Below are positions 12,005-12,415 of a stretch of DNA of 46,582 nt, piece after piece. Numbering within the stretch: the first letter of the stretch is position 1; the number at the start of each line of letters is the position of its first letter. The position numbers and the translations under genes are program-made. Under the pieces are notes generated by a model. It searched no databases. It was not told where the DNA came from and was given only the letters and a program-made list of their open reading frames with translations. This stretch comes from Parvularculaceae bacterium (GTDB taxonomy: Bacteria > Pseudomonadota > Alphaproteobacteria > Caulobacterales > Parvularculaceae), in contig JAJFFW010000026.1 in assembly GCA_021776435.1 (NCBI GenBank), positions 1-46,582 of the forward strand. Direction: 5' to 3'.

Positions 12005-12081
12005 TGGCGATCCCGGCGCGATTCGAACGCGCGACCTCTTGATTCGGAGTCAAGTACTCTATCCAGCTGAGCTACGGGATC
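12005..12081 (-). tRNA. tRNA-Arg (anticodon CCG)
   Basis: A complete 77-base tRNA with encoded CCA. The acceptor arms GATCCCG and CGGGATC pair fully. The D arm contains AGCTGGATA with A20, an arginine identity base. The anticodon stem CTTGA/TCAAG encloses CTCCGAA, giving anticodon CCG, and the T stem GCGCG/CGCGC encloses TTCGAAT. The acceptor and anticodon stems differ from the more usual alphaproteobacterial tRNA-Arg(CCG), which starts GCGCCCG. That usual 5' half survives as a fragment at 12377-12415, so this complete copy may have been brought by a mobile element and replaced the native gene. Confidence 0.95.
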
Positions 12082-12093
12082 GTGGGGGAAATG

Positions 12094-12113
12094 GTGTTAC
12101 CTATGTGTTACCT
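12094..12113. repeat. Direct repeat GTGTTACCT next to the tRNA 5' end
   Basis: GTGTTACCT occurs at 12094 and 12105, and again at 12263 just upstream (in tRNA sense) of the second tRNA fragment. Repeats at this position resemble arm-type binding sites of tyrosine recombinases, which would fit the fragments being attachment-site scars. That reading is inference. Confidence 0.45.
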
Positions 12114-12170
12114 TTACTGTCTTCTCTAAACCCTGTGCAAGACTCGTATCTACACAAAGCATTGTAATAT

Positions 12171-12215
12171 TTATCTTTTTAACCGCCTGATCTCTTCCTT
12201 CAAACCGCTTGACAT
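12171..12215 (-). other. Short reading frame abutting the second tRNA half
   Basis: An ATG six bases past the anticodon-loop core begins a 14-codon frame, MSSGLKEEIRRLKR. The frame at 12288-12371 starts with the same context, GGATGTCAAGCG, and the same residues MSS. Both may be truncated starts of the same element gene placed behind a tRNA promoter, or simply shared element DNA. Confidence 0.3.
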
Positions 12216-12220
12216 CCCGC

Positions 12221-12259
12221 TTCGGAGGCGAATACTCTATCCAGCTGAGCTACGGGACC
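12221..12259 (-). pseudogene. 5' half of a tRNA-Arg, cut at the anticodon loop
   Basis: These 39 bases match the complete tRNA from base 1 through the anticodon loop CTCCGAA, with acceptor strand GGTCCCG. Nothing after the loop can pair with the anticodon, T or acceptor strands. After the loop the sequence continues into a segment shared almost exactly with the next fragment. This is an attachment-site-like relic and not a functional tRNA. Confidence 0.8.
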
Positions 12260-12287
12260 GTGGTGTTACCTTCAATTTTTTCTCAAG

Positions 12288-12371
12288 TCATTGTTCAAAT
12301 CTCGTTCTGAACAAATCCTTGTATCTCTTTCGTTTTTTCGCACGCCAGTTCGCACATTTCGCGCTTGACAT
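12288..12371 (-). other. Short reading frame abutting the third tRNA half
   Basis: A 27-codon frame starting MSSAKCANWRAKKRKR and ending at TGA. It starts six bases beyond the anticodon-loop core of the upstream tRNA half, in the same context as the frame at 12171-12215. It is strongly basic. Whether it is translated is unknown. Confidence 0.3.
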
Positions 12372-12376
12372 CCTGC

Positions 12377-12415
12377 TTCGGAGGGCAGCGCTCTATCCAG
12401 CTGAGCTACGGGCGC
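12377..12415 (-). pseudogene. 5' half of the canonical tRNA-Arg(CCG), cut at the anticodon loop
   Basis: The acceptor strand GCGCCCG, D arm and the anticodon strand CTGCC plus loop CTCCGAA match the usual alphaproteobacterial tRNA-Arg(CCG). Only the 39 bases up to the loop remain; the 3' half is replaced by element-like sequence. This is probably the remnant of the native gene. Confidence 0.8.

Follow-up and report, generated by a model that had tools for sequence, protein, structure and literature searches.

A tandem array of tRNA-Arg(CCG) 5' halves in a Parvularculaceae bacterium, the probable scar of two successive insertions of conjugative elements carrying their own tRNA

The window analysed here, a stretch of 46,582 nt from a Parvularculaceae bacterium (GenBank assembly GCA_021776435.1, contig JAJFFW010000026.1), contains a complete tRNA-Arg(CCG) gene preceded by two 5' halves of the same kind of tRNA, both cut at the anticodon loop. 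We interpret this array as the trace of two integrative conjugative elements of the same subtype that inserted, one after the other, into the sole tRNA-Arg(CCG) gene, and give this reading a probability of about 0.93. In the proposed mechanism, a tyrosine integrase would carry out recombination at CTCCGAAG(G), a core of 8-9 bp that lies in the anticodon loop. The host tRNA would be split because the shared core is too short to rebuild the gene, and the complete tRNA-Arg(CCG) brought by the element, located about 130 nt inside its left end, would have kept the cell alive. A first element would have split the ancestral GCGCCCG-type gene and supplied a replacement (tRNA 1); a second element would have entered tRNA 1 at the same core, splitting it in turn and bringing another replacement (tRNA 2). 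Later deletions would have removed the element bodies, their integrases and the displaced 3' halves, so that tRNA 2 and two 5' halves remain. Deletion is presumed here in place of precise excision, since precise excision would rejoin the halves, and the integrases are presumably the agents of the splitting. The basis for this reading is the anatomy of the array, the existence of intact relatives, a double event with both 3' halves preserved in another genome (G491), and the identity of tRNA 1.

The array lies on the minus strand. ARAGORN and Rfam call one tRNA gene here, the tRNA-Arg(CCG) at complement(12005..12081), which corresponds to replacement tRNA 2. In the order of transcription, it is preceded by a 5' half at 12415-12377 and another at 12259-12221. 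Each is 39 nt long, runs through the anticodon loop CTCCGAA, is cut there and continues with GGATGTCAAG; reading on from CTCCGAA, the two halves give GCAGGATGTCAAGCG or GCGGGATGTCAAGCG. The copies start 178 and 156 bases apart. The 23-base junctions, 12206-12228 and 12362-12384, differ by one base. The outer half (GCGCCCG type) is the oldest layer, taken as the ancestral host gene, and holds the core CTCCGAAG at 12376-12383. It is followed by the left-end remnant of element 1 (12260-12373), starting with GGATGTCAAGCG at 12362-12373 and holding a single GGTAACAC motif at 12263-12270, just before the middle half. The middle half (GGTCCCG type) belongs to tRNA 1, with the core at 12220-12227. The left-end remnant of element 2 (12082-12217) starts with the same GGATGTCAAGCG (12206-12217) and presents two GGTAACAC motifs (12094-12101 and 12105-12112) ahead of the complete tRNA, forming the direct repeat GGTAACACATAGGTAACAC (12094-12112, minus strand), probably arm-type integrase sites. 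The first-pass annotation, made from the letters alone, had described the complete gene and the two 39-nt halves, their spacings, the match of 22 of 23 bases across the junctions and a motif ahead of the copies. All of this is confirmed, the coordinates by ARAGORN, Rfam and the sequence itself.

The genome (G000) is a draft of 142 contigs, 98.6% complete. The three 5' halves of the array are the only CCG-type ones in it when up to 1 mismatch is allowed, and with up to 3 mismatches the whole genome yields a single CCG-type 3' half, which belongs to the complete gene. The check suggested by the first-pass annotation, for a second tRNA-Arg(CCG) or a matching displaced 3' half in the 142 contigs, thus found neither. 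The best match of a related host's 38-nt 3' half to the window has 13 mismatches, and the 3' halves of the broken copies were not found there. In a BLAST search of the array against its own genome, the only other matches were tRNA-Arg genes with anticodons ACG, CCT and TCT and a tRNA-His. CGG codons are in use (37 in 14 ORFs, 12 of these in mutL), and tRNA-Arg(ACG) is not known to read CGG. The remaining complete gene, tRNA 2, is presumably expressed and essential. A sigma-70 scan of 11900-12480 gave no site on the tRNA strand and one site on the other strand, the chance expectation being 0.5.

No mobile-element gene was found among the 19 scanned window ORFs below 17 kb. The nearest integrase of the genome, on contig C65, is 35% identical to the integrase of genome G532 and 40% identical to that of genome G036, two relatives described below, and sits at another tRNA. 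The actors of the proposed events are therefore deduced from relatives. The C65 integrase (L134, G000:C65, 33035-34243, minus strand) is accompanied by GGTAACAA repeats and adjoins the displaced 3' half of the other tRNA (loop TTGCCAA). It was considered as the actor in the window and rejected, since it adjoins another tRNA's 3' half and looks canonical.

The outermost half matches intact tRNA-Arg(CCG) genes of genomes G033 (43 nt at 100%) and G001 (44 nt at 98%). A TraB/PrgY/GumN-family gene (12732-13733, plus strand) adjoins the array on the outer side of this half. Its counterparts, 33-56% identical, lie beside the tRNA-Arg(CCG) locus in seven of the 20 relative loci compared, which come from 17 genomes (four loci from genome G022). 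From the G033 and G001 matches together with the TraB gene beside tRNA-Arg(CCG) in relatives, we conclude that the outermost half stands at the position of the ancestral gene, the TraB gene being its chromosomal anchor outside the element. The loss of an original GCGCCCG-type tRNA, proposed in the first-pass annotation, is supported by the same observations. On the far side of the TraB gene, before a nitroreductase gene, the window also exhibits a REP-like inverted repeat, CCGCACATCCCCGCGCAAGCGGG / CCCGCTTGCGCGGGGATGTGCGG (13842-13917).

The exact junction pattern CTCCGAAGNNGGATGTCAA was searched in a collection of 84,980 species, and 82 stretches were matched. Sixty of them exhibit a 5' half (up to 3 substitutions), the core, and then a complete tRNA-Arg(CCG), with the same core as in the window. 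One more contains a 5' half in a locus that ends too early for the tRNA, and eight contain the tRNA without a recognised 5' half, two of these loci starting inside the 5' half. Neither a 5' half nor a CCG tRNA is present in the other 13. Twelve of these were taken as chance matches; titles were shown for 11 of the twelve, and none is from Alphaproteobacteria. The thirteenth, L201, has a sequence that ends 221 nt after the core. According to their titles, the positive loci belong to Rhodobacteraceae, Hyphomonadaceae, Parvularcula, Maricaulis, sphingomonads, Kordiimonas, Hoeflea, Roseibium and other Alphaproteobacteria, two being titled just "Proteobacteria bacterium" and "bacterium". Viral contigs gave a single junction match, with no half and no tRNA. 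Within the window's own family, the junction occurs in 4 of 62 genomes. A scan of 385 genomes of the class returned, beyond the window's own genome, a true case in G166 and a match in G265, which is not accompanied by a tRNA-Arg and was taken as chance.

At the left junctions, the core CTCCGAAG is followed by GGATGTCAA and not by a 3' half. The distance from the end of GGATGTCAA to the tRNA is narrowly distributed over the 68 loci with a tRNA: 128 nt in 47, 115 nt in 10 and 126-127 nt in seven, the outliers being 307 nt in two loci, 117 nt in one and 240 nt in one. GTAAGC repeats precede the replacement tRNA in 62 of these 68 loci, and a single such motif in two. In 57 of the 60 loci having both, 1 to 8 of the first 39 nt distinguish the replacement tRNA from the host half.

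Intact elements with this junction, which the first-pass annotation had suggested looking for in related genomes, do exist, with an integrase, the core and a displaced 3' half. At the left end of the element in genome G036, a GGTCCCG-type 5' half runs into CGGATGTCAAG, and a complete tRNA-Arg(CCG) of the GCACCCG type lies about 130 nt further on. The right end, 44.7 kb on, consists of a tyrosine integrase gene on the opposite strand, CTCCGAAGG and a 3' half ending in CGGGACC, whose pairing partner is the GGTCCCG half rather than the complete gene. The left part of a G036-like element is also present in genomes G061 and G166.

The search for 3' parts started from the 69 loci with a tRNA or a 5' half, minus L177 (the G061 locus) and L150, plus L201, and covered 67 genomes. 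A single CCG-type 3' match was obtained in 17 of the 67, which are candidates for element loss, or for assembly gaps or divergence. The counts of right ends comprise 26 right ends and 23 left ends on the same contigs, leaving out L242 (G518:C11), whose left end L205 lies on another contig (391,062 versus 82,437 bases). A match to the G036 integrase (tblastn, 31-98% identical) is located 67-240 nt before the core in all 26 right ends, being just a fragment in L251 (40 residues) and L254 (55 residues). The displaced 3' half pairs perfectly (7/7) with the acceptor strand of the 5' half at 20 of the 26 right ends, corresponding to 19 of the 23 left ends (L190 twice), and 6/7 at L213. The other five right ends are the two of L173, where the 5' half is cut off in the locus, those of L151 and L210, which have no 5' half, and a second 3' half downstream of L199. 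Since the GCACCCG stem is common to many hosts, the telling cases are those in which host and replacement differ, such as G036, L182 and L223. The replacement tRNA and the displaced 3' half are separated by 37-117 kb in 20 pairs, and the longest spans may hold more than one element. The first-pass annotation had remarked that 5' halves are left here where displaced 3' halves would be usual. This is true of the window, but the elements themselves do leave 3' halves, at their far end.

Two side observations concern related arrangements. In genome G083 (L126, L121), a relative of the G036 integrase (47% identical) adjoins a displaced 3' half, and a complete tRNA-Arg(CCG) with an identical 3' half stands about 7 kb away. 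This is the canonical arrangement, so that both strategies seem to be present within one integrase family. Extra 5' parts of tRNA-Arg(CCT) are found upstream of a complete copy in L101:10660-10826(-) (genome G009) and L100:9079-9834(-) (genome G010), at 166 and 755 nt, respectively, with other break points; takeover may thus happen at tRNA-Arg(CCT) too.

Element genes were scanned against Pfam for G036 and G532, together with one protein of genome G482 and two proteins of a second element type in genome G022 (element X, see below). The G036 element encodes TrbI, CagX, TrbL, TrbE-like, T2SSE-family and coupling proteins; no relaxase was found among its scanned proteins. The G532 element (L258, L259) encodes an integrase with an arm-binding domain, TrbI, TrbL, TrbE-like, T2SSE-family, coupling and DUF3363/relaxase proteins, and so combines the integrase, relaxase, coupling protein and type IV secretion genes that define an integrative and conjugative element. 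Both gene-scanned elements are conjugative. The ORF list of the G482 element is much like that of G532, and the two span 37.0 and 38.9 kb. Tyrosine integrases with an arm-binding domain were identified in G036, G532 and element X. The GGTAACAC repeat occurs near both ends of the G482 (L162) and G532 (L223) elements, by the tRNA and by the integrase, and we infer that these repeats are arm-type binding sites of the Arm-DNA-bind-domain integrase. The integrase of this subtype is about 31% identical to that of G036, indicating that at least two integrase lineages use the same core.

A double event with its 3' halves in place was identified in genome G491. Its locus L173, from an uncultured Sphingomonadaceae isolate, exhibits two 5' halves and a complete tRNA as in the window, and two 3' halves are located downstream, at 56 and 65 kb. 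The acceptor stems pair 7/7 in every combination, and the assignment therefore depends on the anticodon stems alone: 5/5 pairs form between the host half and the outer 3' half and between the first replacement and the inner 3' half, against 3/5 in both swapped combinations, while the current tRNA gives 4/5 and 3/5. A long integrase match precedes the inner 3' half and a 40-residue fragment precedes the outer one. The window's array would be expected to have had this nested structure before element loss. Another double array is found in Paracoccus marinaquae (L146).

Genome G022 contains a relative of the G036 element and, between an orphan 5' half and the left end of that relative, the second element X (L035:11588 to L037:18960). 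Element X has a different integrase and a different left end, CTCCGAAGGA[C/T]GCAAC with GTCAGCAC repeats, near which lies a complete tRNA-Arg(CCG); the core is the same as in the other elements. Left ends of the X type are also present as single cases in genomes G068 (L102:449) and G393 (L267:1251-1560), in both instances with a complete tRNA after them; when 372 genomes were scanned for the X-type junction, G393 was the only one returned. Also in G022, two ORFs with the start ...KAVIYCRVS, which we take to be that of a large serine recombinase, overlap on the opposite strand a complete tRNA-Arg(CCG) (L093:240-1898(-)) and the displaced 3' half (L095:573-2198(-)). A further variant is a complete tRNA-Arg(CCG) with the stem-loop ATTCCGAATC and without the CTCCGAAG core, observed in G061 (L098:3793-3869), G068 (L102:731-807), G071 (L104:5802-5878(-)), G003 (L099:9554-9630) and G065 (L105:6658-6734); an orphan 5' half stands ahead of those of G061, G068 and G071.

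The location of element X bears on the possibility that the 5' halves persist because they have a role in themselves, for instance by being transcribed into tRNA-half RNAs or by serving as decoy attachment sites that shield the working tRNA: an orphan half that keeps the core can be a target again, and in G022 an element does lie between such a half and the next left end. The halves are degenerate in some loci (L160, L205), as expected of remnants, and we consider this possibility unlikely. It is compatible with the origin of the array by two insertions and does not compete with it.

The window's GGTAACAC subtype provides the closest comparison for the two proposed insertions. Two GGTAACAC repeats precede the replacement tRNA in L203, L223, L162 and L202, as they do in the window. 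Over its first 42 bases, the complete replacement tRNA of L223 has the same sequence as the middle copy of the window; the middle half is thus what remains of the 5' part of an earlier replacement gene. Between the L223 replacement and the window's complete tRNA, 8 of 77 positions differ, and these make up four compensated base pairs, of which three belong to the anticodon stem and one to the acceptor stem. Spacers were scored against 500 shuffles, in which blocks of two bases are moved. The younger spacer (135 nt, the same length as in the four subtype relatives) scores 61-77 against shuffle maxima of 47-49. The older spacer (113 nt) is 22 nt shorter and has lost one of the two repeats; it scores 48-69 against shuffle maxima of 44-46. 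After removal of its invariant first 9 nt, the older spacer stays above all shuffles for L202 alone among the four relatives; the whole older spacer is also above all shuffles for L182, a GTAAGC-type locus.

The two spacers of the window are alike as well (local score 77, shuffle maximum 40), as would be expected of copies if the tRNA locus had been duplicated in tandem and two copies had decayed at their 3' ends without any mobile element. However, both broken copies stop at the same position, beyond which they carry the sequence found after the core in 60 other loci, the acceptor stems differ among the three tRNAs, and loci with matching displaced 3' halves and integrases exist, which makes such a duplication very improbable. 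Least probable of all, although the window retains 5' halves only, is that each element brought just a new 5' half with its own promoter, joining the resident 3' half in a mirror image of the canonical case, since in the relatives a complete tRNA occupies the near end of the element and the resident 3' half the far end, and since the window's complete tRNA has its own acceptor stem (GATCCCG/CGGGATC) and not the GCGCCCG partner. The first-pass annotation had offered this option beside that of a whole replacement tRNA, and only the latter agrees with the relatives. Its proposal of repeated integration into the anticodon loop followed by element loss is likewise supported by the anatomy of the relatives' elements.

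Integration at tRNA genes in the canonical manner was reportedly described by Reiter in 1989 and by Williams in 2002, and a 2018 study reportedly deals with conjugative elements at tRNA anticodon loops in Acidithiobacillus. Canonical islands, ICEs and prophages at tRNA sites, as outlined in PMC9897764, rebuild the tRNA with an element-borne 3' half. They share with the present elements a tyrosine integrase, a tRNA target and a partial tRNA at one end. In the canonical scheme of that source, one junction is a complete gene made of two partners, whereas in the present elements neither junction is an intact gene and the complete copy is a third one, brought by the element.

The closest counterpart is the tRNA-dependent lysogeny of actinobacteriophages (Guerrero-Bustamante and Hatfull 2024, PMC10865867), the prevalence of which outside these phages was left open by its authors. 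According to that account, it involves a tyrosine integrase, pairs of putative arm-type sites and a common core of about 10 bp within a host tRNA gene that is not reconstructed. The same features recur here: the relatives exhibit an 8-9 bp core, split halves at both ends and a tyrosine integrase with an arm-binding domain, the window keeping left junctions only and no integrase. The mechanism is that of the phage system of 2024. Because the G036 and G532 elements carry conjugation genes and are not temperate phages, we regard the system as working like tRNA-dependent lysogeny and not as a strict member of it. Relative to the actinobacteriophage cases as presented there (PMC10865867), the carriers are conjugative elements of Alphaproteobacteria, the target is tRNA-Arg(CCG), the replacement lies about 130 nt from the core, insertions are nested, and the replacement persists after its element has gone. 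In the phages, dependence on the element's tRNA was demonstrated experimentally (PMC10865867), whereas here it is presumed.

In another Alphaproteobacterium, Sinorhizobium meliloti, prophages resembling Mesorhizobium phage vB_MloP_Lo5R7ANS integrate at tRNA-Leu(UAG) (PMC11476347). Integration in the middle of the gene inactivates the tRNA, and a tRNA of the same isotype carried by the element takes over, as proposed here. That case differs in concerning prophages, two strains and another tRNA, and the description available does not include nesting or a fossil left after element loss (PMC11476347). The phiLM21-like prophages of S. meliloti do not show such a tRNA takeover (PMC12429752). In the open-licence literature, with subscription journals mostly outside it, we found no report of conjugative carriers, nested replacement or such fossil arrays. 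As far as searched, conjugative carriers, serial nesting and a replacement that outlives its element are therefore new.

The last replacement in the window reads TCCGAAT, where 67 of the 68 surveyed replacement tRNAs read TCCGAAG (the exception being L177 of G061). From its sequence, this change would suggest an escape from further capture: the window's last replacement, having CTCCGAAT where the core reads CTCCGAAG, may be immune. More generally, we tentatively propose, at somewhat less than even odds, that widespread conjugative elements of Alphaproteobacteria repeatedly capture the sole tRNA-Arg(CCG) gene of their hosts. Capture would orphan the host gene and create dependence on the element's copy, which would become the host gene after element loss; re-capture would select for changed anticodon stems, and stacked 5' halves would be an ordered record of these events.

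It is customary to regard tRNA genes as passed on with the rest of the genome. The window's tRNA-Arg(CCG), the sole gene found for its anticodon, looks horizontally acquired and appears to have replaced a gene that was itself a replacement; many alphaproteobacterial groups carry the same signature. A 5' half, the core, GGATGTCAA, about 130 nt and a complete tRNA would together make up a DNA mark by which past invasions can be recognised after the elements are lost, and a phenomenon described in phages in 2024 would extend to conjugative elements. The question whether a built-in essential tRNA acts as an addiction device, and whether hosts or elements escape through changes in the anticodon stem, is thereby made testable. 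If the proposed history is true, stacked 5' halves would provide a countable, ordered log of past invasions.
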